From contig WHTT01000010.1 in assembly GCA_009377605.1 (NCBI GenBank), forward strand, positions 1 through 64,000: a DNA stretch of 64,000 bases, written 5' to 3'. The DNA is from Luteitalea sp. GTDB taxonomy: Bacteria; Acidobacteriota; Vicinamibacteria; Vicinamibacterales; Vicinamibacteraceae. Both the position numbers and the translations under genes were made by a program. The notes under the pieces are model-generated. The model had not been told where the DNA came from, made no database searches, and saw nothing but the letters and a program-made list of their open reading frames with translations. Each line of letters begins with the position of its first letter. Position 1 is the first letter of the stretch. Below are positions 14,662 to 35,361 of this stretch, piece after piece.

Positions 14662-16593
14662 TTACGCTTGCAGAAGCTCTGGTTCGGTATTACCGTCTGG
14701 CGCGGGCTGCGGCGCTGCCACGGGCGTCGGCGACCAGTCTACCAGTCGGCCGTCCTTGGGGATCTTGAGGGCCACAGGCTGTACACCGGCCGGCAGCGGC
14801 ACGGCCTTCCGCGGGTTCGCGTAGACGGGATGCTTGCCGTGCTCCTTGTACCATTCCGCCACGGTTGCGGTCTGGTGCATCTGCTCGACGATTTGCCGCC
14901 AGCCCACGCCCGTGTTGTAGGCGCAGAACGAGATCTCACCCATTTGCGTCGCGTACGGAATGATGCACATCTCCGTGCGCCGAAAGTCGTACGTCCAGAG
15001 GTCCTGGAACCACATGCCGGCAACGAACATGATGAGCCACTCGTCGCTCTTCCGGTCGCCGTTGTCGGGAGCACCCAGCCGACCGCCGAGCGCCCCTCCA
15101 CTCTGCTTGTCGTACTTCTTCACCAGGTCCAGGAGCCGGAAGCCTCGTGGCGCCGCGAGAGGCGAGTAGTTGCGGAGCAGGCTCAGCGCCGTTTGCAGCT
15201 TGGTGGCCAATGGCCCGCGGGCCGCATCGACGATGAGGCGCGCGTCTTCGAGGAAGCGATCGATGTTGATGAACTCCGAGACGGGGGCCCACGTCTTGGT
15301 GCGCTTGCTGACCATGAACGCCGTGCCAACGCCGCACTCCGGATGGCAGCCACACTTCAGCGTGCCCCAGTCCGCACCCGGCCCCTTGAGCAGGTCGGTC
15401 ACGTCCGAAAGCGGTCCGGTGGCGGATAACGGAAACCAGTCGCGCAGCGGCTCGGTCACGCCCGTCTGCCGCTTCACGTCCTGGGCGAGGTGCGAGAGGG
15501 TGTAACGCTTCTCGAGGCGTTCCTCTGTCGAGATGTCCTCGTCACGCCCTGTGAACGATACGGGCTGGAACGAGACAAAGCTGATCTTGTCGCAGTTCTC
15601 GATCGCGAACTTGATGATCGCGCCGACCTGGTCGTTGTTCACGCCGTTGACGATCGTAACCACGAGGCACACGTCGATCCCCGCCGCGTACAGGTGCTCG
15701 ATGGCCCGCAGCTTCACGTCGAAGAGGTTCTTGACCTTGCGGTGTGAGTTCGCCTCCTCGCCGATGCCGTCGAATTGCAAGTACGCAATGCGGAGCCCGG
15801 CTTCACGCGCGGCCCGCGCGAACTCCGGATCCTGGGCGAAGCGAATCCCGTTCGTCGCCGCCTGCACGCTGAAAAAGCCCACCTCGCGCGCGTAACCGAC
15901 GGCATCGAGAAAGAGCGGAGAGATCGTGGGCTCGCCACCGGAGAACTGCACCGAGAGCTGGCGCCGCGGCTGAACCGTGACGGCATCGTTCAGCAGCTGC
16001 TTCACATCGTCCAACGTGAGCTCGTGCACATAGCCCACCTGATTGGCGTCCATGAAGCACGGGTCGCACATCATGTTGCAGCGGTTGGTCAGATCTATCG
16101 TGAGCACAGCTCCACGGCCGTACTGGATGGAGGAGGTACCGTGGTTGTGCAACCGATCGGTCAGCGCGGTGAAGTCCCGGCCCGGAAAGAGCCGCTCCAT
16201 ACGCGCGAGGAAGGCGGGATCGATGGCGAGGACGTCCGTGAATGTGCCGTGGATCGGGCAGGTCTTCTCGATGATGACCTTACCGTCCCGCTCGACGATG
16301 TCTGCTTTGATCTCGCCGACGTGATCCTGCGTCAACGTCTCCAACGCTTGATCGCCGGCGAGAATACGCCGCCGCGCTTCCTTGACGCACGTGGGACAGA
16401 GCGAGTCGGTCGTTCGGGGCCATCCCAGCGGCGGCTTCGTGCGCTGCCCACTCTTCAGGAGCGGGGCAGGCGCCCACTTCGGCTGAAATGGCCGTCCCTC
16501 GATGCGGCGGTTCACCGCCTGGAACATCGGCCAGGCAATCCGCGCGGCTCCGGTCAAAGCCAGCTCGACCGGCTTCCACACGTTGATCTCCAC
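14662..16593 (-). CDS. Radical SAM enzyme of the MJ0619/Tes-like family
   Basis: A 643-residue multi-cluster radical SAM protein. The SAM-binding [4Fe-4S] motif is CNMMCDPC (Cys 172, 176, 179), and FSGGEPT follows. The N-terminal part carries a rubredoxin-like Cys set (CPTC at 66-69, CPIHG at 112). A later group LKCGCHPECG may bind an auxiliary cluster. This layout matches the family that includes tetraether lipid synthase (Tes) and the related membrane-spanning-lipid enzymes reported in Acidobacteria. Joining of lipid tails is therefore a plausible but unproved role. The GTG start at 16593 follows GGAGG. It has no obvious operon partner. Confidence 0.72.
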   Translation of the reverse strand: MEINVWKPVELALTGAARIAWPMFQAVNRRIEGRPFQPKWAPAPLLKSGQRTKPPLGWPRTTDSLCPTCVKEARRRILAGDQALETLTQDHVGEIKADIVERDGKVIIEKTCPIHGTFTDVLAIDPAFLARMERLFPGRDFTALTDRLHNHGTSSIQYGRGAVLTIDLTNRCNMMCDPCFMDANQVGYVHELTLDDVKQLLNDAVTVQPRRQLSVQFSGGEPTISPLFLDAVGYAREVGFFSVQAATNGIRFAQDPEFARAAREAGLRIAYLQFDGIGEEANSHRKVKNLFDVKLRAIEHLYAAGIDVCLVVTIVNGVNNDQVGAIIKFAIENCDKISFVSFQPVSFTGRDEDISTEERLEKRYTLSHLAQDVKRQTGVTEPLRDWFPLSATGPLSDVTDLLKGPGADWGTLKCGCHPECGVGTAFMVSKRTKTWAPVSEFINIDRFLEDARLIVDAARGPLATKLQTALSLLRNYSPLAAPRGFRLLDLVKKYDKQSGGALGGRLGAPDNGDRKSDEWLIMFVAGMWFQDLWTYDFRRTEMCIIPYATQMGEISFCAYNTGVGWRQIVEQMHQTATVAEWYKEHGKHPVYANPRKAVPLPAGVQPVALKIPKDGRLVDWSPTPVAAPQPAPDGNTEPELLQA

Positions 16594-16760
16594 TCATCCT
16601 CCACGGCAGCCCCACGGATACCCATGGGACTTGGAACGGATCGACGACGGTCACCGTCCGGCTCGTCCAGGCAAGTAGCGGATATCACGGAAGTTAGCTC
16701 TTGTTGCTGGGCCAGGACAGCAGGGTGACTATAACAGAAGTTCGCTCGCTTCGCTCGCCT

Positions 16761-16905
16761 ACCAGGGCAGTGACCAGTGGTCAGTGATCAGCCGATGTAC
16801 GAGCTTCCGGGGGTTGCATCGTTTACCGGGGTCGTTCGCCGTTAGCCCCCGAACAGTCGAAGATCGGCTGACCACTGGCCACTGATCACTGACCACTGCC
16901 CTGGC
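16761..16905. repeat. Inverted CAGTGACCAGTGGTCAGTGATC repeats
   Basis: The left arm (16765-16792) repeats the units CAGTGACC, AGTGGTC and AGTGATC. The right arm (16866-16905) carries the complementary GACCACTGGCC, ACTGATCACTG and ACCACTGCC. About 70 bases separate the arms. The right arm encodes the last codons of the AMP ligase. The remaining intergenic sequence from 16594 shows no gene. Confidence 0.8.
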
Positions 16906-18361
16906 GCGCGGAGCGCGCCAGGGCATCAAGCGCCTGCCGATCCACCTTGCCGCGGTCCGTGCGCGGTATCTCGTCAATGAAGAGGACGTCTCGGGGGATT
17001 TTATGAGGCGCGACCCGCTCGGCCAGGAAGGTTCGGACGGCCATCGGTCGTAGCCCGAGCCCGGTATCCGCTCGCACGATGCAGGCGACCAGCACCTGCC
17101 CCCGGCGGTCATCCGGCGCTCCGACCACGGAGACTTCGGCCACACCTGGCATGGTGCGGAGCACCCGCTCGATCTCGTCTGGTTGCACCTTCCGGCCGGC
17201 CACGTTGACAAACGACGACATGCGTCCCGAGAGCACCAAGTCGCCGTCGGCATCGAAGAACCCGAGATCGCCGGTGAGATAGCCGCCATCGACGAATCCT
17301 TCTCCAGGCTGGGTCTCATCCACGTACCCGTGCGAGACGGCCGAGCTGCAGACGTGCACCCGCCCGCTGCCCTGCGGCAGATCGGCGTGCTCGATCGGCC
17401 GTAACGTGATATGCACATCGCCGAGCGGTCGGCCGACGGGTACGGGGCTCTTGACGGCGGCCGAATCGTCGAAGGTGATGCCGCCCGTTTCGGTGCTGCC
17501 GTAGAACGAATGGATCTTTCGATGGAAGTGGCGCTCGAACGCGTCGACGGTGCGGAATTCCAACCGCGCGCCAGCCGAGATGCACGTGCCAAACTGCGGC
17601 GGGAGCGCCCCGCCAGGGACCTGATCCACGAGCGCGTCGAACATGAACGGCACGCCGGGCCAGATGCGGACGCGGTCGTCGATGATGTCCTGCACGAGCT
17701 GTGTGGGCGCGAACGCCTCGCGAAGCACCATGGCCGTTCCCTGCAGCAACATCGGCAGCAGCAGGTTGCCCAGGCCGTACATGTGTGACAGTGGAATCAC
17801 CGCCAGCTGTACGTCCTCCGGGCGGATATCCATGGCTGCAGTGATCTGGCGGACGTCTGCCATGAGGTGTCGCTCGGCTGCTCGGGCGGCCTTCGGTAGG
17901 CCGCTCGACCCAGACGTGAGCTTCAGCAAGCAGGTGTCGGGATAGCGCCCGCGCGGCGGTTGCTCGAGCAGCAGCTCGACGACGAGGCCCCCTGGTAGGG
18001 GAGTCGTCGTGTGTGGCAGCCGAATGTGGACGCCCTCGGGTGCGACGACGGCACAAGCGCCATAGGCGGTGGCGAGGGTGGTGACTTCCGGCATCGCGGT
18101 GCTGCGATCCACCGGCATGAGCGTGACGCCGAGGTCGAAGCAGGCGAGCAAGACTGCCGCGAAGGAGGAGCGGTTCCCCGCCAGCGAGAGCACCACCGAG
18201 CCAGGTGCGAGCCCGAGTCCGGCAAAGGTCTCCCTCGTGCTCACGTATTCGTCCCAGATCCCGCGCGCCGTAAGGGCTCGTCCCTCGGAGCGGGCGACGA
18301 TGAGCGTGCGTGACGGCGTATCGCGACACACCCGGCGAAAGCTATCGAGGAGCTCGCTCAT
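16886..18361 (-). CDS. AMP-dependent acyl/aryl ligase (cluster loading enzyme)
   Basis: A 491-residue ANL-superfamily adenylating enzyme. It has LTSGSSGLPKAA (ATP-phosphate loop), YGSTETGG, TGDLGFFDADGDL and the C-terminal lysine motif PRTDRGKVDR. In aryl-polyene and xanthomonadin clusters a ligase of this type activates the aromatic starter acid for loading on the carrier protein. With a chorismatase two genes away, hydroxybenzoate is a reasonable substrate here (inference). ATG 18361 is only 18 bases from the divergent dehydratase ATG. The last residues (ARQGSGQ) are translated from the CAGTGACC repeat. Confidence 0.82.
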   Translation of the reverse strand: MSELLDSFRRVCRDTPSRTLIVARSEGRALTARGIWDEYVSTRETFAGLGLAPGSVVLSLAGNRSSFAAVLLACFDLGVTLMPVDRSTAMPEVTTLATAYGACAVVAPEGVHIRLPHTTTPLPGGLVVELLLEQPPRGRYPDTCLLKLTSGSSGLPKAARAAERHLMADVRQITAAMDIRPEDVQLAVIPLSHMYGLGNLLLPMLLQGTAMVLREAFAPTQLVQDIIDDRVRIWPGVPFMFDALVDQVPGGALPPQFGTCISAGARLEFRTVDAFERHFHRKIHSFYGSTETGGITFDDSAAVKSPVPVGRPLGDVHITLRPIEHADLPQGSGRVHVCSSAVSHGYVDETQPGEGFVDGGYLTGDLGFFDADGDLVLSGRMSSFVNVAGRKVQPDEIERVLRTMPGVAEVSVVGAPDDRRGQVLVACIVRADTGLGLRPMAVRTFLAERVAPHKIPRDVLFIDEIPRTDRGKVDRQALDALARSARQGSGQ

Positions 18362-18379
18362 TGAGATAGGCTCGTTCTC

Positions 18380-18829
18380 ATGCGCTACCTCGACCTGCTG
18401 CCCCACGCGCCGCCGATGCGCCTGATCGAAGAGGTGCTGGAGGTCGCTCCGGGCGCGCGCGTGCAGGGACGCCGCATCGCACATGCAGACGACTGGTACT
18501 TCAACGGACACTTTCCGGGTCGACCTGTCGTGCCCGCCATTGTACTCGTCGAGCTCGTCGCGCAGGCAGGTGGGCTTGCCGTGGGTACGGCTGCGGAGGA
18601 CGCGCCACCGGCGCCGCGAGCGCTGCGCGTGGCAGGGCTCGGGCCGTTCAAGTTTCCGGCGGCGGCGGGACCGGGCAGCGTGCTCGTCGTCAACGCGCGC
18701 GTCGTCGGCCGCATCGGCAGTCTTGTCAAGATCGAGGGCGACGTGCACGCAGACGGAACCTTAGTCGCGGCAGGGAGCGTGGTGCTCGCGGACGTCGGCA
18801 CTCGTCGCGCAGGCCTGCGCTACGACTGA
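18380..18829 (+). CDS. 3-hydroxyacyl-ACP dehydratase (FabZ-like hotdog)
   Basis: A 149-residue single-hotdog protein. The catalytic His44 lies in NGHFPGRPVVPAIV and Glu58 in LVELVAQAGG, as in FabZ. It removes water from 3-hydroxyacyl-ACP to give a trans double bond; repeated use without enoyl reduction gives a polyene. It is transcribed away from the AMP ligase, with a very short shared upstream region. Its 3' end overlaps the convergent chorismatase gene by 10 bases. Confidence 0.85.
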   Translation: MRYLDLLPHAPPMRLIEEVLEVAPGARVQGRRIAHADDWYFNGHFPGRPVVPAIVLVELVAQAGGLAVGTAAEDAPPAPRALRVAGLGPFKFPAAAGPGSVLVVNARVVGRIGSLVKIEGDVHADGTLVAAGSVVLADVGTRRAGLRYD

Positions 18830-19764
18830 CCATTCCCAAGAGCCGCAATACCTTCGACCTCGACGAGGAGCTCTCGCCGGCAGATCTCACCGCGTGCGAT
18901 TTCGATGTCCTCGGTGTCGGGAAAGAGCTTGCTGGTCTGTTCCAACACGAATGCGGCGTCATCCGCACGCACGACGTAGGCGCGCAGTGCGGTGAACCGG
19001 TACGACGGCTGTGGGGCAGGCCCCTCGATTGAGGCATTCGCCGCCGCGAGCAGCGCTTCGAGATTGGTCAGCGTTTCGCGGGTCTGGCGGCCGATATCCT
19101 CCGCATGCCGCGATTCCTCGCCCACGATGCTTGCCGTACCCCCCACCAACAGGAGCTCTCGCCCGCCGATGGCGCGAGCAGGCCGCGTGGCGCGCGCAAA
19201 GCAGGGTGGCCGCGGACCGTAGCGAGTCGAGTAGTGATACGAAGGGATCTGACGAGGATTCTCAATCGGCGTCCCCGGCTCGTCTGCCGCCAGACAATGC
19301 ACCGTGAGCGTGGCCCCCTCGACGCCCACTGCCGACGCTGTTGCAAGCGTGTGATCGAACGCGCGCGGTGTGCCGTACCACGAGGTGAACGCGCGATAGC
19401 GCCCTCGGTTGAACACCATGTAGCGATCGAGCCCCTCGCCCATGGGGGCATGGATGTCCGGCACGTAGCTCCAAAATCGCACAGGGTGCCGTGCTTCGTC
19501 TGCCAGTCGGTGCGCGATGTTCAAGTACACATCCGCTACCAGGTCCTGGAATCGTTCGGGCGGGAGAGCCGTGGCTCGCGAGACCTCAACCTCGACGAAC
19601 GACAACTGCGGCAGGCGGCGCACATAGACGCCTCCGAGTCTGGTCGGCCCATCGTCGACTCGCCGGCGCGGTGCCTCACCTAGCAGCTCTATGAGCCACC
19701 GGGGAGGAGCGGCGACGAGAGTGGGCAGCGCAGGCGGACGGGCATAGGGGGCGCGAATCGTCAT
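18820..19764 (-). CDS. Chorismatase (FkbO/Hyg5/XanB2 family)
   Basis: A 314-residue enzyme of the chorismatase fold. It shows RFWSYVPDIHAPMGEGLDRY, a central SYHYSTRYGPRPPCFARATR, and GGTASIVGEESRHAEDIG followed by QTRETLTNLEALL, all hallmarks of the family. The family hydrolyses chorismate to 3-hydroxybenzoate, 4-hydroxybenzoate or dihydroxycyclohexadiene carboxylate. XanB2 supplies 3-hydroxybenzoate as xanthomonadin starter. Which product is made here cannot be read off with confidence. Start ATG 19764 (MTIRAPYARPP) is preferred over an upstream extension lacking family similarity. Its placement among polyketide genes fits starter supply. Confidence 0.82.
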   Translation of the reverse strand: MTIRAPYARPPALPTLVAAPPRWLIELLGEAPRRRVDDGPTRLGGVYVRRLPQLSFVEVEVSRATALPPERFQDLVADVYLNIAHRLADEARHPVRFWSYVPDIHAPMGEGLDRYMVFNRGRYRAFTSWYGTPRAFDHTLATASAVGVEGATLTVHCLAADEPGTPIENPRQIPSYHYSTRYGPRPPCFARATRPARAIGGRELLLVGGTASIVGEESRHAEDIGRQTRETLTNLEALLAAANASIEGPAPQPSYRFTALRAYVVRADDAAFVLEQTSKLFPDTEDIEIARGEICRRELLVEVEGIAALGNGQS

Positions 19765-19858
19765 GGGAACGTGCAGGGAGACCTGCCCTGCGCCGGTGCG
19801 ACCATGATACAGCCAAGACGCACGAGTCGGCGGGCACCGACTACAATGCGAGGAGGTT

Positions 19859-21052
19859 ATGGCTGTCGACATGTCCTCGGCCGGACGTCTCCGATCGCGC
19901 GCGCTCACGCGAGCCGGGCGGCTCCAGCGAGTGATCTACGAGCTTCGGACGGAGGGCACCAGCCGGCGCCGCGACGCAGTGGCGGTCGGCCTGGGACTCT
20001 TCGTGGGCTGCTCGCCGTTCTGGGGGCTTCACCTGGTGCTCTGCTGGATCGCTGGGCGACTCCTTGGCCTCAACCGCTTGAAGCTGTACCTCGCCGCGAA
20101 CCTTGCAAACCCGTTCTCCGCGCCGTTTCTGGTGTTCGGGGAGGTGCAGACCGGTGCCTTCTTGCGGCGCGGCGCGCCGCATGAGCTGTCATTGGAGGGC
20201 ATCAAACAGACCAGTCCATGGGTCTTTGGTGGTGACTTCGTGCTCGGGAGCCTGGTCGTTGGTGGGGTGCTCGGCCTCCTGGCTGCGGCGATTACGTACT
20301 TCACGATGCGACGCGCATCACACGATCCGGCATTTTCGACGGTGGTGCGCGAGGCTGCCGATCGGTTTCTCGCCACCGGCATCACCGCCTGGGAGTTCGC
20401 GCGCGGGAAGTTGCGGAACGATCCCGTCTACCGCGAGGTGTTGTGTGGCGGCTGGCTGCCATCAGGTGGGACCCTAGTCGATGTTGGATGTGGTCAAGGA
20501 CTCATGCTCGCGCTGCTTGCCGACGCTCGGCAGGAAATGGAAGAAGGGAGGTGGCCGTCGACCTTGCCCCCGCCGCCTCGCTTCGACGGCTTGGCGGGCC
20601 TCGAGCTGCGGCGGCGTGTCGCACATATCGCAGAGCGCGCGTTGGAGAAGGACGCCACGATCGTCCACGGTGATGCGCGCCACACCCTGCCTCGAGGCTG
20701 TCGCGTCGTCCTTTGCTTCGATGTTCTTCACCTCATGTCGGCCGAGGACCAAGATCAGCTGCTGGCGTCGGTCGCGAGCGCGCTAGAGCCGGGGGGCATT
20801 CTCGTGGTGCGCGAGGCGGATGCGGCCGGAGGTTGGCGCTTTCAGATGGTTCGCGCCGGCAACTGGATCAAGGCGATTGCGATCGGCCGGTGGCGGCAGA
20901 GGTTTCACTTTCGCACGACGGACGAGTGGCTGGCCTGCCTGGCGCGTCACGGCTTCGTGGCCGATGTTCGGCCCATGGGCCACGGGACTCCTTTTGCGAA
21001 CGTCCTGCTCCGGGCCAAGCGGCAGCAAGAGCTAAGGACCGACGCGGCGTGA
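19859..21052 (+). CDS. DUF2062 membrane domain fused to SAM methyltransferase
   Basis: A 397-residue two-domain protein. Residues about 35-155 are a DUF2062 module (RRRDAVAVGLGLFVGCSPFWG, ANLANPFSAPF, two to three membrane helices). Residues about 195-395 are a class I methyltransferase with LVDVGCGQGLMLALL as SAM-binding loop and a later CFDVLHLMS. Cluster methyltransferases modify the aromatic head of aryl polyenes, so a membrane-tethered ring or phenol methylase is a plausible role. AGGAGG sits only 2 bases before ATG 19859, so ATG 19871 is an alternative start. Confidence 0.75.
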   Translation: MAVDMSSAGRLRSRALTRAGRLQRVIYELRTEGTSRRRDAVAVGLGLFVGCSPFWGLHLVLCWIAGRLLGLNRLKLYLAANLANPFSAPFLVFGEVQTGAFLRRGAPHELSLEGIKQTSPWVFGGDFVLGSLVVGGVLGLLAAAITYFTMRRASHDPAFSTVVREAADRFLATGITAWEFARGKLRNDPVYREVLCGGWLPSGGTLVDVGCGQGLMLALLADARQEMEEGRWPSTLPPPPRFDGLAGLELRRRVAHIAERALEKDATIVHGDARHTLPRGCRVVLCFDVLHLMSAEDQDQLLASVASALEPGGILVVREADAAGGWRFQMVRAGNWIKAIAIGRWRQRFHFRTTDEWLACLARHGFVADVRPMGHGTPFANVLLRAKRQQELRTDAA

Positions 21053-22090
21053 TTGGACCAGGTCGGCGATCTGAACGATCTGCCTGAGCGCGCGCCCGTC
21101 GCGGTCGAACGTGCCGCCAAACCAAATCCCACACCTGATGGGGACGCCGCTCAACGAGGGTGTCGTTGGAGCGGGCCACCCGCTGGTCGCTGGCGCGTCG
21201 TTGGCTGGCGCGCGCGACATGGCCGTTCCAGAACGTGCCCAGCAGTACCTGATGTCCGACCAGACCGCCCGTTGGAGCCCGTTCGGACTCTGTTGCTCGA
21301 CCGGAAAAGCGAGAGCGTGACCACGGAGGAAGTTCTGGACGGTACCCAACGCACGCGATGACTGGACGAGCGGGGTTTCTCGACGGATCGGGTATGCGAA
21401 TCGCAATGTGACCGTGCCCGAGCCGTCGACGCGCCACGCGCGTAGGGCATGGTCCGTCCGGTCGAAGATATCCCACTCGAGCAAATGGCCCCAGGGGACC
21501 TCGATCGCGGAGGCGACCACGCGATCCCCACGGGTCAGGAGCGTGTCGCGATGCGCTTCGACCGCCCGATGTCGCAGCACGAGCTTGCCGCACAGCAAGC
21601 CTGCCAGCACGAAGATGGTTGCCGCGGCAAGGCCCACCTGGGAATGCCGGCGCACTCGGATTGCGACCGCGCCGGTGATCAAGAGCACCAAGACGAACGG
21701 ATCGCCCATCGCGACGAGCGGTGCGCTGATGAGCGGGTCGACGAGCGGCCATCCGACACGAACGCTGGCGCCGGAGACGAGGTCCCAGAAGAGGTGGCCG
21801 AGGCTGCCAGCCCACGCCGCGGCGAGTAGGCGCGGAAAGCGTGCCTGGGAACGTGCGAGACGCACCATGCCCGCGGCGGCGACGGCACACACCGCCGTGC
21901 CAACGAGCGCGTGGGTACCGGCGACATGGGCGCGCAGATAGACGTCCCACGCCACCGGCATCAAGACAACGTCGCTGTCGGGCAGAATCGAGCCTAGTAG
22001 ACACGCGCCAACGGCACCCGAGCCGAGCCGCTTCCGATCATCCAGCCCGATGAGCACGCGGCCGAACAGCAGGTGCGAGAGCGCGTCCAT
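21032..22090 (-). CDS. Predicted membrane-bound metal-dependent hydrolase (DUF457/YdjM-like)
   Basis: A 352-residue protein. MDALSHLLFGRVL carries the first conserved His, ILPDSDVV an acidic pair, and RAHVAGTHALVG and GSLGHLFWDLV further His/Asp residues, all spread over about five membrane helices. This is the pattern of the DUF457 family. The C-terminal third (about 200-352) is soluble and variable. It overlaps the convergent methyltransferase gene by 21 bases and begins the leftward operon tail after the acyltransferase (17-base gap). Its role in the cluster is unknown. Confidence 0.7.
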   Translation of the reverse strand: MDALSHLLFGRVLIGLDDRKRLGSGAVGACLLGSILPDSDVVLMPVAWDVYLRAHVAGTHALVGTAVCAVAAAGMVRLARSQARFPRLLAAAWAGSLGHLFWDLVSGASVRVGWPLVDPLISAPLVAMGDPFVLVLLITGAVAIRVRRHSQVGLAAATIFVLAGLLCGKLVLRHRAVEAHRDTLLTRGDRVVASAIEVPWGHLLEWDIFDRTDHALRAWRVDGSGTVTLRFAYPIRRETPLVQSSRALGTVQNFLRGHALAFPVEQQSPNGLQRAVWSDIRYCWARSGTAMSRAPANDAPATSGWPAPTTPSLSGVPIRCGIWFGGTFDRDGRALRQIVQIADLVQSRRVGP

Positions 22091-22107: not shown

Positions 22108-23043
22108 TCACCTGGTCGCGCCGTCACCTGCCACGTCCCAGTAGCGATAGAACTGATACCACAGCTCGGGGCGCGCGCGAACGCGTGCTTCGATCGCTTC
22201 CGCCACGCGTTGCGTGGCGTTCTGAACGAGCGTCTCACGATCGCCGTCACGCCCGACGAAGATGGGAGCCCCCAGGTGCACCAGAAATCGTCCATCGTCG
22301 CGACGCTCGAGCGAGACCGGCACGAGCGGCGCGCCGGTCAAGTACGCCATGAGCGCCGGCGTGCGGAGAAAGAGCGCTTGGCGTTCGAAGAGCGTGACCG
22401 GCACGCGGTCGCGGCCGACGTGCCGATCGACGAGGAGAGCCACGAGCTGACCTTCCGAGAGCTTCCGGCGAATCTGCAGCGCGGTGTCCATCGACTGTCG
22501 CACGGAAATCGTGTCGATGCCCAGCGCCTGCCGAATCGTGTCCCGGAGGCGATTGGCCTCCGGGCTCGCTTCCGTCATGGCCAACACGCTCAGCGGGTAG
22601 TCGTACGCGCGGCGCAACAGGATGCCGCCCATCTCCCAGTTGCCATGATGAGCGCTGACGAGGAGCATGCCGCGTCCAGCATGCAGGAGCTCATCGACCG
22701 TCTCCCGGTTATCGAACAGGAACAGGTCGCGCGCCTCTTCTCGTGAGAGGCGCAAGCCGCGAATGAAGTCGATGACGTCGCGCGCGTAGCTGCGATAGGT
22801 CGCCAGCGCGCGTTGCCGGAGCGCCGCGTCACTCTCGGTTGGAAAGACGACGCGGAGGTTGTGGACGAGGGCGTCCGTCGTTGCGTGCATCAATCGCCAT
22901 GCGAGGAAGGTGCTCGCATGGCCAATGCCGTACGAGACCGAGCGGGGCAGCACGCTCACGCCACGATACGTGGCGGCGTAGATGGTCCCGCTGTTCAAAG
23001 CGTGTGACGTCCAGGAGGTTGTCGGCGAATCGGCGCTACGCAC
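22108..23043 (-). CDS. HtrB/LpxL-type lysophospholipid acyltransferase
   Basis: A 311-residue inner-membrane acyltransferase. The catalytic His-x4-Glu is seen as AHHGNWEMGG, and the later LVDRHVGRDRVPV and RTPALMAYLTGAPLVP blocks are typical of the lipid A acyltransferase family. In aryl-polyene clusters this family is thought to attach the chain to a lipid or glycolipid anchor. It lies 6 bases after the glycosyltransferase stop, within an exporter-glycosyltransferase-acyltransferase operon. The start is GTG 23043. Confidence 0.82.
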   Translation of the reverse strand: MRSADSPTTSWTSHALNSGTIYAATYRGVSVLPRSVSYGIGHASTFLAWRLMHATTDALVHNLRVVFPTESDAALRQRALATYRSYARDVIDFIRGLRLSREEARDLFLFDNRETVDELLHAGRGMLLVSAHHGNWEMGGILLRRAYDYPLSVLAMTEASPEANRLRDTIRQALGIDTISVRQSMDTALQIRRKLSEGQLVALLVDRHVGRDRVPVTLFERQALFLRTPALMAYLTGAPLVPVSLERRDDGRFLVHLGAPIFVGRDGDRETLVQNATQRVAEAIEARVRARPELWYQFYRYWDVAGDGATR

Positions 23044-23049
23044 GTCAGG

Positions 23050-23721
23050 TTACATCCTTTCGAGGAACCGGTAATACACCGCGAGAAAGCAGGTCTTCGT
23101 AGTGTCGCGCATGGGCCGCAGCTTGCTGCGCTCCATGCCGTACACCGCGCTGACGGGCATCTCGATGATCCGAGCTCGGCGTCGCGCGAGCTTGACCAGC
23201 ATCTCGGTCTCGATCTCGAAGCCCGTGGCGCTGAGCGGGACGTTGCGCAGCGCCTCGCAGCGGTACACACGGAATCCTGACTGTGTATCTCGAAGTGGAA
23301 GCCCCACGAACCACGAGAGCACGCGGCTACCAGTCACGTTCGCGTAATAGCGTGAGGCTGGCATCGCAGCTCTGTCGAACCGCCGGCCGCCGATGACGAG
23401 GTCGGCTCCGGAGCGCCGCGCCGTGTCGAGCAGCCGCGGGACCTCGTCTGGAACGTGCTGCAAGTCACCGTCCAAGACGACGAGGTGTGTGGCAGGCGAA
23501 GCGAGCACGACTGCCAGCCCGGCACGCACCGCACGCCCTTTTCCGAGGTTGCGCGTGTGCGAAATGACGTCGGCGCCCGCCTGCCGCGCTGCTTCACCCG
23601 TTCGATCCGTCGATCCATCGTCGACCACGAGCACCCGCTCGACGTGCGGCGCGACGCCGCGGACGACGCGGGCGATCGTGCTCACTTCGTTGTACGCAGG
23701 AATCATGGCTTGCGCGCGCAT
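23050..23721 (-). CDS. Family 2 glycosyltransferase
   Basis: A 223-residue GT2 enzyme of the dolichol-phosphate-mannose-synthase-like branch. IPAYNEVSTIARVV opens the nucleotide-sugar domain, VVDDGSTDRT and VLDGDLQHVPDEV carry the metal-binding aspartates, and LRDTQSGFRVYR is the acceptor-side motif. There is no C-terminal membrane anchor. It overlaps the exporter gene by 19 bases, so expression is coupled. The neighbouring acyltransferase suggests it builds a sugar-containing anchor for the product (inference). Confidence 0.85.
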   Translation of the reverse strand: MRAQAMIPAYNEVSTIARVVRGVAPHVERVLVVDDGSTDRTGEAARQAGADVISHTRNLGKGRAVRAGLAVVLASPATHLVVLDGDLQHVPDEVPRLLDTARRSGADLVIGGRRFDRAAMPASRYYANVTGSRVLSWFVGLPLRDTQSGFRVYRCEALRNVPLSATGFEIETEMLVKLARRRARIIEMPVSAVYGMERSKLRPMRDTTKTCFLAVYYRFLERM

Positions 23722-26222
23722 GTCGCTCCAACCCGCTCCAACATCGCCGGCAGCACCAGCACCGACGCCGCCACCAGCGCCAGCACGCTCACCGCGGACA
23801 CGACGCCGATCGACTGCAGCGGCGGGTACGACGAGTTGATCAATGTGCCATATCCGAGCAGCGTGATGAGGCCGGCCACGAGAATCACGGGCGCGAGCTC
23901 CGACGTAGCCCGTTCAGCGTGGTAGCCATACTGCCGGTACCGGTGCACGAGGTGGATGCCATAGTCGACGCCGATGCCCACGAAGGTGACGACCGCAAAG
24001 ACGGCGAACAGATCCAGCTCGACACCGGCGAGTGCGAGCACACCGGCGGTCCAGACGAGGCCGAGCGCCGTTGGGGCAAGCGCGAGCAGCGAGAGCCGCC
24101 ACTCGCGGAACGTCGCGAGGATCAGCGCGAGCACGATTGCCGTGCCCACGCCGAGGCCCTTGAGAAACTCCGGCAGGAAGCGTGCCGCGAGCTCGGCGTT
24201 CACGAGCGGCAAGCCGGTGAGCTGTTGATCTGGCGCCACGCGTCGCACCAGCGCGTCGACGCGCGCGATATCCTTGGCGTCGCGTGGCAGCACGTACGAG
24301 GCGAGCACCCAACCGCCGCCCTCGCGCGACACGAAGCGCGAGATGACATCGCCGAGACCGTGGTCGACATACCCCTGATAGCTCACCCGTTGCGCGCGGT
24401 CGAGCAGACGCGGCAGACGCGCCACGAAGGGGGCGAGCGTGTCGGTGCGGAAGCCAACGTCGGTCGCGACTTGGTGGATTCTCCGTCCAGCGACGTCGGG
24501 CGAGAGACCCTCCTGGCGCAAGCGCTGCCTCGTGACGGCTTGCTGGCGAGACGAGGGCAGCAGCGCGCTCACGGTGTGAATCGGAAGGCCCGGTAGCTCG
24601 CGATGGATCGCGTCGGCGAGCTTCGCGTTCCCGTCGACGAGCGTCTGCAGCTCCCTGCCGCGCGCGAGCACGACGCCGACGTCGGTTGGCAGGCCAAACC
24701 GTCGCGCCACCGCTTGCTCGAACTGGACAGCGGGCGTCGTGGACTCCAAGCGCTCCAGTGTCGGGTTGACCTGCAGTCCGAGCGCGGCGACGGCGAGCGC
24801 GACCGTGACCAGGGCGGCCGCGATGAGAACGAGGCGACTTTGTCGACCGATGAGCGCGGCAAGACCTGGCAGGGTGAGCGCTCGTGGCGGGCGGGTCCCC
24901 GGTCGGGACGGGAGCATGGCCGGCACGAGGAGCAATGTCAGAATGCCACAGACGACCATACTGTGGCCAATGAGCATACCGAGCTGTTGCAAGCTCGGGT
25001 AGTCGATCACCACGAGCCCGTAGAAGGTTGCGGCCGTGGTCCACATGCCGAGCAGCATGCTCGCCGATGCGCCTGACGTTCGACGCACGGCCTCGTGCGA
25101 GGGCAGCCCGTCGCTCAGACCGAGCCGATACGTCACATAGAGCAACACCACGCCATCGATGCCAAGGCCGAAGAGCATGGCCGACGCGCCTGTCGCAGCG
25201 GCTGAGAGGGTAGTGCCGGCGAAGCCCAGGGCCCCCAGTACCACGAGCAGCGAGAGCCCGGTCGGAATTGCGCCACAGGCCAGCAGCCACGGGCTACGAA
25301 AGATGAGCAGGAGAGCGGGCAGGATCAGGACCAGCGATCCGATGCTGTTGACGATGCTCTCGCGCTTGATCTGTGCCTCGGTCTCGATGCCGATCCGATG
25401 GCCACCAGCGTATGCCACGTCCAGCGGCGGCAACGCGTCGGCGAACGGATCGGAGATCACGTCGCGGGACTCTTCGTTCGGCGTGTTGCGTTCGAGACCC
25501 ATATCGTGCGTGACGGCCCGCTCGATGTCGTTCAGCCGCTCGAACAATCGATGCGAAAACGCGGTATCGAACGGCGGCGAGCTGGGGCGGGCGATCACGA
25601 GCCGGCTCTGGCCATCAGGAGCGACGTATCCGGAGCTGCTCGCCCCGAGGCCTACACCGGCGCTGCCGCCTCCGAGCTGCGCGCTCAAGAGGTTGAACAG
25701 CCCAAGGGGATCCTGGCTCACCATCGTGGTCACCGCAGGTGATGGCAGCGTCAGCAGCCTTCGGCTTGCGTCGAGCGCCTCACGCATCTCCTCCGGCTCG
25801 AAGCGTGCAAGGGCCGCGTGGAGCCGTTGCTCGTCGAGCAGCCACAACAGGTGATCGGCCAGATACGACCAGTCGCGCGTGGTATCGATGCGACCGGTGT
25901 CGATGTGATCGATTTCGGGAGCTTTGCCCAGTCGTGCGACGAACCGATCGATGACGGAATCGTATTCGTCGATGGTGTGGTCAGGCGGTGCGGTAAAGAC
26001 GATGTAGAGTTGATCGAGGCTGCCGAATCGTTCGAGATAGGTCTCGAAGGCGGGCACCGCCGCGCCCTCTCGAGGCAACAGATGGAGCACGTTGGCATCG
26101 AACCTCACTCGACTGACACCAACCACCGAGACGAGTAAGAGCACGCAGGTGCCGATGAGCACCAGGCGGCGGTGGCCCCTGGCCCAAGCGATGAGGGCGG
26201 GTATTGAAAAGATGCCTGTCAT
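23703..26222 (-). CDS. MMPL/RND-superfamily exporter
   Basis: A protein of about 839 residues with two RND halves. Each half has one N-terminal membrane helix, a large periplasmic loop and a five-helix bundle (for example IVNSIGSLVLILPALLLIF and LFGLGIDGVVLLYVTYR, then VGTAIVLALILATF and FVGIGVDYGIHLVHRYR). The GxGxDxxxxL/HxxxR signatures of MMPL transporters are clear. In aryl-polyene clusters an MMPL protein is proposed to carry the lipid-linked product across the inner membrane. The frame is open upstream to 26378, but ATG 26222 (MTGIFSIPALIAWARG) best fits the family start. Confidence 0.85.
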   Translation of the reverse strand: MTGIFSIPALIAWARGHRRLVLIGTCVLLLVSVVGVSRVRFDANVLHLLPREGAAVPAFETYLERFGSLDQLYIVFTAPPDHTIDEYDSVIDRFVARLGKAPEIDHIDTGRIDTTRDWSYLADHLLWLLDEQRLHAALARFEPEEMREALDASRRLLTLPSPAVTTMVSQDPLGLFNLLSAQLGGGSAGVGLGASSSGYVAPDGQSRLVIARPSSPPFDTAFSHRLFERLNDIERAVTHDMGLERNTPNEESRDVISDPFADALPPLDVAYAGGHRIGIETEAQIKRESIVNSIGSLVLILPALLLIFRSPWLLACGAIPTGLSLLVVLGALGFAGTTLSAAATGASAMLFGLGIDGVVLLYVTYRLGLSDGLPSHEAVRRTSGASASMLLGMWTTAATFYGLVVIDYPSLQQLGMLIGHSMVVCGILTLLLVPAMLPSRPGTRPPRALTLPGLAALIGRQSRLVLIAAALVTVALAVAALGLQVNPTLERLESTTPAVQFEQAVARRFGLPTDVGVVLARGRELQTLVDGNAKLADAIHRELPGLPIHTVSALLPSSRQQAVTRQRLRQEGLSPDVAGRRIHQVATDVGFRTDTLAPFVARLPRLLDRAQRVSYQGYVDHGLGDVISRFVSREGGGWVLASYVLPRDAKDIARVDALVRRVAPDQQLTGLPLVNAELAARFLPEFLKGLGVGTAIVLALILATFREWRLSLLALAPTALGLVWTAGVLALAGVELDLFAVFAVVTFVGIGVDYGIHLVHRYRQYGYHAERATSELAPVILVAGLITLLGYGTLINSSYPPLQSIGVVSAVSVLALVAASVLVLPAMLERVGATCARKP

Positions 26223-26319
26223 CGTCACGTTCGAGAGCGGTCGATCGGCGCCGTCTGCGATGACTTCGCGTCGGTTGGCGATCATATCTTCATCGCGGAC
26301 GATTTGTGCCACGTAGGGC

Positions 26320-26348
26320 TTGACACGCGGCGAGGGTGACGCTAATTT
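26320..26348 (+). promoter_or_regulatory. Predicted promoter for blaI-like gene
   Basis: TTGACA (26320-26325) and TAATTT (26343-26348) are separated by 17 bases, ahead of the BlaI-family gene and divergent from the exporter. The expected start of transcription near 26355 leaves a leader of roughly 50 bases, in which a BlaI operator could lie; I do not see a perfect dyad. Confidence 0.4.
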
Positions 26349-26402
26349 TTCAGCATTGTGGGACTTGAGCGCGTTCACCCTCGGACTTCACGCTAGATCA
26401 TC

Positions 26403-28123: not shown

Positions 28124-28834
28124 TCATTGCCCTTCCCAATCAATCTGGGGGTTCAATTCGACGTCTTCGAACGTCATGAGCTTCGTGTCCCCGCTCGGGA
28201 ACGTCAAACGCATTCCGCTCGGCAGAAACGAGCGCTGATCGACCCACAGCTCCAACTTTGTGATCGCCTGCAAAATCTGTTTGCGCTTGGGCACCATGGT
28301 GACGAGATACACGCCCTTCGACTCGCCCCTTTGGGCGGAGGTAATGCTGGCGTGAATGCGAAAGTGGCTCCGTAACTCATCCGGGTCGGCGTCGACGAAG
28401 TATCGTTGGATGCGTCGCTGCGCGGTCCCGATGTCCTTCGTTTCATTCACGCCACGGCTTGGCCACGTAAGGATCAACCGCTCGCCGTCGATCACAATCG
28501 TTCGTTCGTCGGGCGATGTGTACGTGAGCCGCACGCGCGACGGTCGAACGAGTGCCACCGAGCCGTGCTCGACGAGCGGTCGCGTGAGCATCGACGAGGT
28601 GGTGGTCTCGGTGACGCGAGCGGTCAGCGTCCGGAGAGATGTGCGCACGTGCTCGCTCTTGCGAAAGAGCTCATCGAAGAGATCCGGATCTTGGCTGGCG
28701 GTTCCGGCGCGAACGGTCACGAGGCCAAACAGCGCATGGAAGATGCACCACAACGAGGCAGCGGCGCCGAGACGAGCCGTCCAGGTGCGCACCCGGAGCC
28801 CCGCGCCCTGGCTCTCGAGTGGTTGATGCTTCAT
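28124..28834 (-). CDS. LolA-like outer-membrane lipoprotein carrier
   Basis: A protein of about 236 residues with an N-terminal hydrophobic signal (LGAAASLWCIFHALFGLVTV). A LolA/LolB-type half-barrel domain follows, with SGMRLTFPSGDTKLMTFEDVELNP, the characteristic last strands. Aryl-polyene clusters regularly carry such a LolA relative, thought to ferry the lipid-linked product across the periplasm. ATG 28834 (MKHQPLESQGAG) is preferred; 25 bases separate it from the divergent ketosynthase GTG. Confidence 0.78.
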   Translation of the reverse strand: MKHQPLESQGAGLRVRTWTARLGAAASLWCIFHALFGLVTVRAGTASQDPDLFDELFRKSEHVRTSLRTLTARVTETTTSSMLTRPLVEHGSVALVRPSRVRLTYTSPDERTIVIDGERLILTWPSRGVNETKDIGTAQRRIQRYFVDADPDELRSHFRIHASITSAQRGESKGVYLVTMVPKRKQILQAITKLELWVDQRSFLPSGMRLTFPSGDTKLMTFEDVELNPQIDWEGQ

Positions 28835-28859
28835 CGCGGCCAATGGTAACGTACGCCGC

Positions 28860-30092
28860 GTGCAGCGCCCCGCCTGCATTACCGGCATTGGTGTTCTCTC
28901 CGCCCTTGGTTGCTCTCCTCACGCATTTCGCGAGGCCTTGCTCGGCGGGCGTACGGGCATTGGCCCGATCACGACGTTCGACACGTCAGGCTGCCAGTCG
29001 AAGCTGGGTGCGCCACTCAAGGACTTCGATGCGACGCGCTGGCTCTCCCCGCTCAAGTTGCGACGCATGGATGAGACCGGCCGTCTCGCCGTCGTCGCCA
29101 CGCGCGAAGCGCTCGACGATGGGGGCTGTCGTATCGGCGAAGGGGGCGACGATCGCCTCGGCGTCGTCTTGGGCACGTATACGGCGGGCGGACCTGCAAC
29201 CAGCGAGTTCTTGGCGGCCCTCCTCCGTGGCGGGCCAACGGGCGTGCCCGCGCTCCTCTTCAGCAGCACGGTCGGGAACGCGCCAGCCAGTCTCGCGGCG
29301 CTCGAGTACAAGCTCCGCGGGCCGAACAGCACCATCAGCCAGAAAGAGTGCTCGGGCCTTGCCGCGATTGCCACCGCCGTGGATCTGCTCGCCGAAGGTC
29401 GTGCGCGTGCCGTTGTCACCGGCGGCGTCGATGCACTGTTCGCTGTCTTCTTTCAGGTCCATGATCGGTTTGGTGTACTGGCCAAATCAGATGGGGACGT
29501 ACCCGAACGGAGCCAGCCATTCGATCGGTGGCGCAATGGATTCGTGCTCGGCGAAGGCGGCTTCGGCCTCCTGCTCGAGGAAGCCGAGTCCGCCCGGGCG
29601 CGTGGTGCGCGTGTGTACGGCGCGGTGCTGGGCGTCGGAGCGTCGAGCGCCGTGTCCGGGATCAACGCCTGGCCTTCGGACCCGCGCGCCCTCGCGCGGA
29701 CCATGCGGCTGGCGCTGGAGGAGGCGGGTGTCGACCCGGCGGACATCGCGGCCATCTACGCCTCGGCGAACTCGACGGTGGTGCTGGACCGCGCGGAGGC
29801 AGAGGCCATCGCCCTCGTATTCGGGCCGCGCGATGTGCTCGTCACTGCGATCAAGGGCGCGATCGGCGAGTTCGGAGCATCTGGTGCGGCCGCGTGTGCC
29901 GCAGCGCTCCTGTGTGGCGAGGCAGGTCTCGTCTCCCCCACGGCCGGACTGACGGAGCAGGATCCGGCATGCGCCCACCTTCGGATCCCGACTGCGGCGG
30001 TGCCGCTGGCCGGACGCTTCGTCCTCGTCAACAGCTTTGCAAGCGGCGGTGCCACATACAGCGTCGTCTTGCGGGTGGGCGACCAAGCGTGA
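28860..30092 (+). CDS. Beta-ketoacyl synthase homologue lacking both catalytic His (chain-length-factor-like)
   Basis: A 410-residue thiolase-fold protein of the FabF type. The nucleophile position is kept (Cys164 in ISQKECSGLAAI). The first catalytic His is replaced (ASANST, Ser302), and the second is Glu337 (IKGAIGEFGASGA); the Lys (332) remains. Such a protein cannot catalyse normal decarboxylative condensation alone. It most likely pairs with the intact ketosynthase at 36348-37568, as ApeC-like or chain-length-factor subunits do. The start is GTG 28860. Confidence 0.82.
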   Translation: MQRPACITGIGVLSALGCSPHAFREALLGGRTGIGPITTFDTSGCQSKLGAPLKDFDATRWLSPLKLRRMDETGRLAVVATREALDDGGCRIGEGGDDRLGVVLGTYTAGGPATSEFLAALLRGGPTGVPALLFSSTVGNAPASLAALEYKLRGPNSTISQKECSGLAAIATAVDLLAEGRARAVVTGGVDALFAVFFQVHDRFGVLAKSDGDVPERSQPFDRWRNGFVLGEGGFGLLLEEAESARARGARVYGAVLGVGASSAVSGINAWPSDPRALARTMRLALEEAGVDPADIAAIYASANSTVVLDRAEAEAIALVFGPRDVLVTAIKGAIGEFGASGAAACAAALLCGEAGLVSPTAGLTEQDPACAHLRIPTAAVPLAGRFVLVNSFASGGATYSVVLRVGDQA

Positions 30093-30195: not shown

Positions 30196-30952
30196 GTGTC
30201 CTTTCGAGGAACTCCAGCTCACGGACCGCGTAGCGGTCGTCACCGGCGGGTCTCGCGGCATCGGACGCAGCATCTCGGAGCTCTTGGCGGAGCGTGGCGC
30301 GGCCGTTGGCATCTTGTTTCGCGAACGTGTCGACGCGGCGCGCGAGGTCATCGCGACGGTCGAGGCGCGCGGTGGCCGCGCAGTGGCGGTGCAGTGTGAT
30401 GTGGCCGACGAGGCCGCAGTGAACGATGCATTTGCCCGTGTCACGCGTGAGCTCGGACCTGTCGATATCCTGGTCAACAATGCGGGCATCAATCATGACG
30501 TGCGCTTCCTGTTGATGGACCGCGCGGCATGGGACAAGGTGTTGAGGGTCAACCTCGATGGGGCGTACTACTGTACGCGAGCCGTCATTCGAGCCATGCT
30601 ACAGCGTCAGCGGGGACGTATCGTGAACATCACCTCACCCAGCGCAACGTTGCCGCTGCCGGGGCAAGCGAACTATGCGGCGTCGAAGGCGGGATTGGTC
30701 GGCTTGACACGTGCGCTCTCACGCGAGCTCGCTGGCCGCGGCGTCCTCGTGAATGCCGTCTGCCCAGGCCTCGTCGAGACCGACATGGTGACCAGCATGC
30801 CGGCCGACTTGCGGGCCGAGAGCCTTGGGGCCATACCCATGAATCGGTTCGGTTTTCCACGCGAGGTTGCCGCGTTGGTCGCCTTCATTTGTTCCGATGC
30901 CGCGAGCTACATCACAGGCCAGGTCATTGCCGTTGACGGCGGTCTTACATAG
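30196..30952 (+). CDS. 3-oxoacyl-ACP reductase (FabG family) with +1 frame change at codon 4
   Basis: The body is a full FabG-type [13 protein letters not shown] cofactor loop, NNAG, and [20 protein letters not shown] with catalytic Ser/Tyr/Lys, ending VIAVDGGLT. In that frame no ATG, GTG or TTG precedes the cofactor loop. A GTG at 30196 with GGGAGGGG just upstream reads GTG TCC TTT, and a +1 step at TTT-C (30202-30205) joins it to GAG GAA CTC CAG. This gives [18 protein letters not shown], a normal FabG start (251 residues). Either one base is inserted or the ribosome shifts. Its role is to reduce the beta-keto group in polyene extension. Confidence 0.75.
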
Positions 30953-31114: not shown

Positions 31115-31381
31115 ATGAGTGATGCTCTCAAGGCGGAGATCAAGCAGGCCATCGTGCGGTGTCTTCGGCTTCCCATCCAGCCGGAGGAAATCGAGGACCG
31201 AGCAGCCTTATTCGGGGAGGGGCTGGGGCTCGATTCCATCGACGCTCTCGAATTGGTCTTGGAGCTGGAGCGCTCGTTTGGTGCCGTGATCGACAACGAA
31301 GAGGCCGGCGGCCGAATCCTGCGGTCGGTCGACACGATTACAGAGTTCGTCGAGCAACAGCGCACGGGCAGCGGACGATAG
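31115..31381 (+). CDS. Acyl carrier protein
   Basis: An 88-residue acidic four-helix protein. The phosphopantetheine serine is Ser41 in GLGLDSIDALELVLELE. It carries the growing chain for the cluster ketosynthases. ATG 31115 (MSDALKAEIK) fits the family length; a longer frame from 31076 adds an unlikely leader. The stop is 6 bases before the deacetylase start, so it is cotranscribed. Confidence 0.9.
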   Translation: MSDALKAEIKQAIVRCLRLPIQPEEIEDRAALFGEGLGLDSIDALELVLELERSFGAVIDNEEAGGRILRSVDTITEFVEQQRTGSGR

Positions 31382-31387
31382 ACGCTT

Positions 31388-32290
31388 GTGTCACTGAACG
31401 CCTTCACGGTCGACCTCGAGGAGTGGTTCCACATCTGCGGTGTCGAGGGGCCGCTGTCTGCCTCCAACTGGGCGAACCTGCCATCTCGGGTCGAGCTCAC
31501 CACGCGACGGTTACTGGACGAATTGGATGCCGCCGGCGTTCGGGCGACGTTCTTCGTCTTGGGGTGGGTTGCTGCGCGGTACCCCTCGATCGTGGGCGAG
31601 ATCGCGGCCGGAGGGCACGAGATCGGGTCGCATGGCTACTGGCACCGCTGGGTCCACATGCAGACGCCAGAGGAGCTCGCCGCGGACCTCGATGCCGGCG
31701 TTGGTGCGCTCGCTGCGGCCGGGGTCGGTGGTGTCACGGCCTATCGAGCGCCCGAATGGTCGATCAACGGTCGCTCGCCTTGGGCGCTCGAATGCCTGGT
31801 ACGTCACGGCTTTTGCATCGACGCGAGCATGGCACCGGTCGCGATCGTGGGACGTGCCTCGTACCCTCGCCGGCCGCACGTCCGCGCCACATGGGCAGGA
31901 CCGATCCTCGAGGTGCCACCTCTCGTCATCGACCGTCTCGGCCAGGCGATGCCCATCGGCTGGGGCTGGGGCCTGCGGATGAGCGCACCGCGCCGCGTCT
32001 TGGCCGCCATCGAGCAGGCGAATCGTGCGGGCGATCCCGCGGTCCTCATGGTGCACCCCTGGGAAGTGGATGCTGATCCGCCGCGGGTGTCCTTGCCGGC
32101 ACGCCAGCGCTTTGCCCACTACTTTCGGTTGGATGGCTTCCTCGCTCGGCTTCGTGTCATCCTGCGCGGCGCGTCGTTTCGACCGCTTGGCGAGGTGCTG
32201 GCGTCCGACGCGGGGCTGATCTCGCAGGGAGCCGCCAGATCGGCCGCACATGCGCATCAACGGTCGAATGGGTGTAGGCCCGACCTCTAG
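31388..32290 (+). CDS. Polysaccharide deacetylase family protein
   Basis: A 300-residue NodB-fold enzyme. FTVDLEEWFH carries the first metal/acid residues, GHEIGSHGYWH the two metal His, and YRAPEWSIN the arginine motif. The C-terminal part (MVHPWEVD, FRLDGFLARLR) is like the DUF3473 extension of deacetylases from exopolysaccharide loci. There is no signal peptide, so it may act in the cytoplasm on a sugar head group or lipid-linked sugar. It follows the carrier protein in an apparent operon. A deacetylase is not a usual aryl-polyene gene. Confidence 0.82.
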   Translation: MSLNAFTVDLEEWFHICGVEGPLSASNWANLPSRVELTTRRLLDELDAAGVRATFFVLGWVAARYPSIVGEIAAGGHEIGSHGYWHRWVHMQTPEELAADLDAGVGALAAAGVGGVTAYRAPEWSINGRSPWALECLVRHGFCIDASMAPVAIVGRASYPRRPHVRATWAGPILEVPPLVIDRLGQAMPIGWGWGLRMSAPRRVLAAIEQANRAGDPAVLMVHPWEVDADPPRVSLPARQRFAHYFRLDGFLARLRVILRGASFRPLGEVLASDAGLISQGAARSAAHAHQRSNGCRPDL

Positions 32291-32312
32291 GTCGGCGTGC
32301 TCGGCAATTGCA

Positions 32313-35260: not shown

Positions 35261-35354
35261 GGTCCTTAGTTCTTGGTCCCTGGTGCGCCTAGTACGCTTC
35301 GATGCTTCGCGACGCCAAGACGCACCAAGAACCAAGGACCAAGGACCAAGGACC
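35261..35354. repeat. Inverted AAGGACC tandem repeats
   Basis: GGTCCTTAGTTCTTGG at 35261-35283 faces CCAAGAACCAAGG plus three further ACCAAGG units at 35325-35354. It is the same family and geometry as 5107-5250. It ends 7 bases before the PHP gene ATG. Confidence 0.8.
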
Positions 35355-35361
35355 TGAAAGA

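Follow-up and report, generated by a model that had tools for sequence, protein, structure and literature searches.

A Tes-like radical SAM gene associated with aryl polyene pigment clusters in Acidobacteriota

In the stretch of acidobacterial DNA that was analyzed here (64,000 nucleotides, referred to as the window), the gene for a Tes-like radical SAM enzyme is located beside an aryl polyene cluster. Its membership in the Tes/MJ0619 superfamily, its position in a separate paralogous clade, and the linkage and co-occurrence of this clade with pigment genes were established by sequence comparison. We tentatively propose, with somewhat less than even confidence, that a Tes-type enzyme was recruited to the acidobacterial aryl polyene pathway, where it would perform C-C coupling of the pigment lipid chain. 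We regard an aryl polyene lipid, rather than the fatty acids of the bulk membrane, as its likely substrate.

Tes-type enzymes join unactivated carbons, and their bacterial homologues were proposed as markers for organisms that produce branched tetraether lipids (brGDGTs), compounds of relevance to climate proxies (PMC8941075, PMC11868695). The family has been described in these surveys of Tes homologues from bacteria, and the clade with pigment linkage appears to be a new form of it. Within the literature searched, no paper joined aryl polyenes with a tetraether synthase, and the titles and abstract openings on aryl polyenes and radical SAM enzymes gave no pointer to a link between Tes and pigments. 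The presence of a second Tes-like copy in the pigment cluster of a soil bacterium suggests that pigment tails may be joined too. If true, a rare C-C coupling chemistry known from membrane lipids would also operate on polyketide-type pigments.

Gene, metal sites and predicted fold

The interval 14662-16593 is spanned exactly by an intact 643-codon open frame that begins with GTG and lies on the minus strand, the strand being a detail absent from the original prediction. That the gene is real was confirmed by matches of a strength far beyond chance. The protein matched the Pfam families Radical_SAM (E 4.5e-19) and Zn_ribbon_HMPTM (E 1.7e-14), the latter corresponding to an N-terminal zinc-ribbon/rubredoxin-type domain. 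Its best NCBIfam model was Tes (NF045702; E 1.7e-95, residues 62-575), with a score of 320.5 bits that lies under the 450-bit cut-off of this model. The best solved structure by sequence was GDGT-MAS of Methanocaldococcus jannaschii (MJ0619, PDB 7tol; E 2.2e-66, 32% identity). The nearest relative of the gene originates from the same genus and is 89% identical, and the dN/dS of ~0.10 between the two (642 codons) indicates purifying selection. Scanning for promoters and terminators in the vicinity of the gene gave no hit. At 11584-14649 on the plus strand, PD40 repeats, a Tricorn C1 piece and a full gamma-glutamyltranspeptidase are combined in a single open frame, an odd fusion which is either natural or assembly-derived.

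It was originally predicted that the protein follows the multi-cluster plan of tetraether lipid synthase relatives, and the motifs named for this, CPTC/CPIHG, CNMMCDPC and a late CGC...C group, are all present in frame. CPTC (C66, C69) and CPIHG (C112, H115) give a rubredoxin-type CX2C...CX2H pattern and CNMMCDPC (C172, C176, C179) the radical SAM CX3CX2C motif, both invariant in an alignment of 26 sequences. The late group consists of CGCHPEC (C414, C416, C420) followed by C543 and C557. GDGT-MAS was described to coordinate its rubredoxin iron site by C9, C12, C33 and H36 and an N-terminal auxiliary cluster ([Fe4S4]N) by C73, C77, C80 and a histidine, and to contain in addition the radical SAM cluster and a C-terminal cluster with a labile Met439; during coupling, the sulfur of one of the clusters binds the substrate carbon (PMC9433317). 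In the window protein C420, C543 and C557 align with the C-terminal cluster cysteines of GDGT-MAS and are predicted to be ligands; they are invariant in the 26 rows, as are M527 and Y547, the equivalents of Met439 and Tyr459, and an extra CXC (C414, C416). The N-terminal [4Fe-4S] ligands CX3CX2CX2H are missing from the window protein in the alignment; the motif was found in MJ0619 and in 0 of the 123 relatives of a broader set. The multi-cluster plan was thus retained in its motifs and is one cluster short. Two [4Fe-4S] clusters and one mononuclear iron are predicted for the window protein, versus three and one in GDGT-MAS. Since these ligands are absent and the score lies below the NCBIfam cut-off, the protein is referred to as Tes-like and not as Tes.

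An AlphaFold2 model was built from the 26-row alignment (mean pLDDT 81), in which the radical SAM cysteine loop is poorly modelled (pLDDT <50 at residues 172-183). Structure 7tol was its sole full-length structural match (Z 36.9, rmsd 2.7, 471 residues aligned), the next fold being MoaA with a Z of 19 versus 37, and Foldseek matched the model to the Tes structure with an E of 4.5e-34 and a TMt of 0.87. Sequence, metal-site residues and predicted fold therefore bear out the predicted membership in the Tes/MJ0619 superfamily. Placement in a different radical SAM family was also checked: the cofactor-maturation enzymes MoaA, NirJ, AhbC/D and PqqE, whose models scored far lower, were rejected as much weaker in both sequence and fold.

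The aryl polyene neighbourhood

The Tes-like gene and the genes beside it are listed below.

14662..16593, minus strand: Tes-like radical SAM enzyme, 643 aa (P0001)
16886..18361, minus strand: acyl/aryl-AMP ligase (Pfam AMP-binding, E 4.6e-39)
18416..18829, plus strand: FabA-like hotdog dehydratase (Pfam FabA, E 3.1e-16; frame open from 18380)
18820..19908, minus strand: chorismatase of the FkbO/Hyg5/XanB2 type (Pfam PF21168, E 1.6e-14; start approximate)
19859..21052, plus strand: DUF2062 - SAM methyltransferase fusion (homologues near the G014, G045 and G026 clusters)
21032..22090, minus strand: YdjM-like membrane protein
22108..23043, minus strand: LpxL-type acyltransferase (Pfam, E 2.2e-34)
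23050..23721, minus strand: family 2 glycosyltransferase (Pfam, E 5.1e-23)
23703..26378, minus strand: MMPL/RND exporter (Pfam, E 2.6e-23)
28124..28888, minus strand: LolA-like carrier (Pfam, E 2.9e-11)
28860..30092, plus strand: ketosynthase-like chain length factor (Pfam, E 3.6e-31)
30284..30952, plus strand: FabG-like ketoreductase (Pfam, E 1.5e-62; frame open further upstream, start approximate)
31115..31381, plus strand: acyl carrier protein (Pfam PP-binding, E 3.3e-07)
31388..32290, plus strand: polysaccharide deacetylase family protein
32250..35258, plus strand: large secreted protein 'orf1000' with a LolA/MucB-like segment (cluster marker)
35302..36351, plus strand: PHP-type phosphoesterase
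36348..37568, plus strand: FabF-like ketosynthase (Pfam, E 8.3e-44)

The AMP ligase, whose ATG is probably that at 18361 (the mechanical ORF extends to 18748), directly adjoins the Tes-like gene. The 292-bp gap between the two holds a 49-nt inverted repeat (16765-16813 / 16846-16894) that is 80% complementary. The dehydratase is 59% identical to its homologue in genome G014, and in the chain length factor a Glu occupies the position of the catalytic Cys (alignment to 1e5m). The chorismatase matched TIGR04444 with an E of 9.6e-44, under the cut-off of that model, and PDB 5ag3 with an E of 3.4e-36; it is the likely source of a hydroxybenzoate starter. The core set of ketosynthase, chain length factor, acyl carrier protein, ketoreductase, dehydratase and AMP ligase is complete, a source of the aryl starter is present (chorismatase in the window, an aromatic amino acid lyase in subclade B described below), and acyltransferase, LolA and MMPL genes are available for lipid anchoring and export. 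Judged by gene content, these genes form an aryl polyene cluster of the xanthomonadin type, with a yellow membrane pigment as the predicted product.

A separate Tes-like clade and its pigment linkage

The window gene is not the only Tes homologue of its genome, as a stand-alone paralogue with 61% identity to the window protein was found in the same genome (G000:C28:32629-34416). Tes-like matches at E 1e-50 were present in 208 of the 396 sampled Acidobacteriota genomes, and among the matches listed in this phylum most had ~60% identity. The 19 stand-alone-type loci examined had neither an aryl polyene cluster nor a conserved neighbour; weak matches to reductases, glycosyltransferases and one AMP-ligase-like domain were all that they yielded. 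The original prediction had linked the window gene to iso-diabolic acid, which was reported in acidobacterial subdivisions 1, 3, 4 and 6 (PMC13274423). As stated, this link was not supported: the paralogue is of the widespread acidobacterial type and would fit iso-diabolic acid and ordinary membrane-spanning lipids more naturally. The predicted role as a membrane-spanning lipid synthase is therefore retained only in part: the enzyme belongs to the Tes/MJ0619 superfamily and may still join hydrophobic tails, though probably those of an aryl polyene lipid. The pigment linkage also provides a genetic marker by which the acidobacterial Tes-like gene responsible for iso-diabolic acid may be singled out. 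If one Tes-like clade acts on pigments, counts of Tes homologues would overcount brGDGT genes.

The phylogeny suggested along with the original prediction was calculated with MJ0619 as the only characterized reference. The 10 window-type rows were recovered as one clade (support 100/99), next to the phylum-wide clade, in an IQ-TREE phylogeny of 46 rows calculated with a site mixture. A 124-row tree agreed, and in both trees the window-type rows fell outside the stand-alone acidobacterial clade. W533, in the region of the C-terminal cluster, was found in 10/10 window-clade rows versus F in 24/24 sister rows, and L520 of the window protein is replaced by N in the sister clade; both are among the candidate specificity positions. 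Window-type proteins were encoded in 13 of the 162 genomes of the order. Subclade A comprises the window, G001, G014, G083, G041 and G072 as well as partial genes in G122, G062 and G119, and subclade B comprises G045, G026, G053 and G036. A relative from a Latescibacterota MAG (L144, 72% identical) is positioned at the base of the clade.

Several other Tes-like genes came to light. One acidobacterial genome carries two of different lineages 6 kb apart (L134:8990-10981 and 16654-18480), of which one has the N-terminal cluster ligands and the other lacks them; the two are candidates for divided labour in brGDGT making. In L050:13472-17906 (G004:C61), a further Tes-like gene precedes genes for a fatty acid desaturase and a cytochrome P450. 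Stand-alone relatives with 61-63% identity were found in the Myxococcota Sorangium cellulosum and Minicystis rosea (L148, L150, L157, L208), which are cultivable.

Aryl polyene genes were located beside the Tes-like gene in 11 of the 12 window-type loci with upstream sequence, a count from which G062 and G119 were left out as their contigs begin inside the gene. In L144 no pigment gene was detected within 8 kb upstream, and the contig stops just past the gene. The AMP ligase neighbours the Tes-like gene in all seven subclade A loci with upstream sequence; in G072 a halogenase, also known from xanthomonadin-type clusters, and a UbiE-like methyltransferase are inserted between the two, the halogenase adjoining the Tes-like gene. 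All four subclade B loci harbor an aromatic amino acid lyase together with an AMP ligase, a B12-dependent radical SAM enzyme or a FabA-like dehydratase. One clade thus contains two starter systems, the chorismatase (window, G014) and the lyase (subclade B).

In the tree set, 9/10 window-clade rows were linked versus 4/102 others (Fisher p 1.3e-9, a value that overstates independence since the genomes are related). The linked rows outside the window clade were L122, L231, L232 (family f57) and L240 (G330), hence pigment linkage recurs in other Tes-like branches. Linkage changed at least three times on the tree (twice without the long-branched L240), suggesting more than one origin. For the 124-row tree, L078 (G072; its upstream half is L077) and L232 (AMP ligase and glycosyltransferase) were set to linked by hand, the incomplete L123 was dropped before counting, and L143 and L145 were labelled linked though the AMP ligase was their only listed gene. 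A PHP phosphoesterase was observed close to the Tes-like gene in eight of the ten loci of families f57 and f33 (L122, L123, L231-L236) and was not found near it in L237 and L238.

The large secreted protein (32313-35258) served as marker for co-occurrence. Orthologues over 500 bits were regarded as strong, a cut that was picked after a gap in the score table had become visible, and were present in 20 of the 162 genomes. Strong markers occurred in 11/13 genomes with a window-type gene versus 9/149 without (p 3.3e-10), and at the original looser cut the marker occurred in 12/13 versus 21/149 (p 8.9e-9), both p values being subject to the same relatedness of the genomes. The two window-type genomes without a strong marker, G062 and G119, are fragmented assemblies. 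Since 9 of the 20 strong-marker genomes have no window-type gene, the gene is optional for the pigment. The lyase was found in exactly four of the 162 genomes, which are the four of subclade B. The chorismatase was found in 10 of 162 genomes, only three of which have a window-type gene, again indicating that the gene is optional and moreover tied to no single starter; with seven of its ten carriers lacking the gene, the chorismatase was dropped as a cluster-wide marker. In G001 the Tes-like gene and the AMP ligase are on one contig and the chorismatase and the marker on another.

Possible function and comparison with known systems

In the proposed pathway, chorismatase and AMP ligase would load a hydroxybenzoate starter, and the polyene would be assembled by ketosynthase/chain length factor, reductase and dehydratase. 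A methyltransferase may methylate the aryl end; in the E. coli cluster, the methyl group of the aryl ring is presumably added by a methyltransferase (PMC8253772). The acyltransferase would anchor the polyene on a lipid and MMPL/LolA would export it. With 5'-deoxyadenosyl radicals, the Tes-like enzyme would abstract H from the aryl polyene lipid, at an sp3 carbon of its hydrophobic end; on chemical grounds, an aryl methyl should donate H more easily than the methyl of a saturated tail. As proposed for GDGT-MAS, the carbon radical would be parked on the C-terminal [4Fe-4S] cluster and then coupled to a second chain, a step that we infer because the C-terminal cluster residues for radical storage are kept. 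The reaction at the chain end is most likely the formation of a C-C bond. The part of the scheme with the least certainty is the identity of the second chain, which could be a further aryl polyene or an iso-fatty acyl tail; the product would be a dimeric or membrane-spanning pigment lipid. That two aryl polyene chains, or an aryl polyene and an iso-fatty acyl tail, are welded end to end into a covalently membrane-spanning polyene pigment is a more doubtful extension; if true, a Tes-type enzyme for C(sp3)-C(sp3) coupling would here produce a non-isoprenoid equivalent of the bolaform carotenoids. Counted against the coupling proposal are its extrapolation from an archaeal enzyme of 32% identity whose [Fe4S4]N site is missing here, the 292-bp gap with its inverted repeat, which makes co-transcription of AMP ligase and Tes-like gene uncertain, the optional nature of the gene, the absence of pigment genes from L144 and the split contigs of G001.

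The same observations bear on three other explanations. The linkage data would equally suit a radical tailoring of the aryl polyene lipid without coupling, such as ring closure, sulfur insertion or functionalizing of the aryl-end methyl. GDGT-MAS was reported to give a sulfur-bearing lipid under limiting SAM (PMC9433317), further genes for tailoring are found in the clusters (halogenase, methyltransferase, B12-dependent radical SAM), and clade-specific residues such as W533 lie in the region of the C-terminal cluster. Yet none of the radical-storage residues is lost, neither the cysteines of the C-terminal cluster nor the counterpart of Met439, and we consider this explanation somewhat unlikely. 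An ordinary membrane-spanning lipid synthase, which makes iso-diabolic acid from iso-fatty acyl tails and whose copy is located by the pigment genes for regulatory or historical reasons, would fit the preserved fold and most metal-site residues of Tes, the sister position to the type widespread in Acidobacteriota, the occurrence of iso-diabolic acid in the subdivisions named above (PMC13274423) and the role proposed for bacterial Tes homologues by Zeng et al. (PMC8941075). It is unlikely in view of the stand-alone paralogue that the genome already has, of the window clade tracking the pigment cluster in the 162 genomes, and of the recurrence of linkage in other Tes-like branches. If the gene were a mere neighbour, functionally unrelated to the pigment genes, this could account for the nine of 20 genomes with a pigment cluster and no window-type gene, and for the gap to the AMP ligase with its inverted repeat; 11 linked loci of 12, in two gene arrangements and with probably more than one origin of linkage, make this very improbable.

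The neighbourhood resembles the xanthomonadin cluster, the arcuflavin cluster of Azoarcus and the APE cluster of E. coli in AMP ligase, acyl carrier protein, ketosynthase and chain length factor, ketoreductase and dehydratase, and further in acyltransferase, glycosyltransferase, LolA and RND exporter (PMC8253772, PMC3949708). With the arcuflavin cluster, chorismatase, halogenase, methyltransferase and polysaccharide deacetylase are also shared (PMC3949708). The gene tables for E. coli and Azoarcus in these sources differ in that, as far as they were consulted, they contain no Tes-like radical SAM enzyme (PMC8253772, PMC3949708).

Among the enzymes, the stand-alone acidobacterial type shares 60-62% identity and the same metal-site residues with the window protein and likewise has no N-terminal cluster ligands, but forms a separate clade, has a longer C-terminus (about 700 aa) and was without a pigment cluster in all 19 loci. 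The lineage of L060 and L134:16654-18480 also consists of acidobacterial Tes homologues; in contrast to the window protein, to which it is 35-36% identical, it retains CX3CX2CX2H and is 41-44% identical to MJ0619. Mss, the bacterial membrane-spanning lipid synthase, is similar by description, as it couples fatty acyl tails and its models resemble the Tes structure (PMC13274423). With GDGT-MAS (MJ0619; 7tol, 7tom) the window protein shares the fold over 471 residues, the rubredoxin-type site, CX3CX2C, the C-terminal cluster cysteines and the equivalents of Met439 and Tyr459, whereas it differs from this 32% identical enzyme in the lack of the [Fe4S4]N ligands, the extra C414/C416, its bacterial origin and its location in a pigment cluster.
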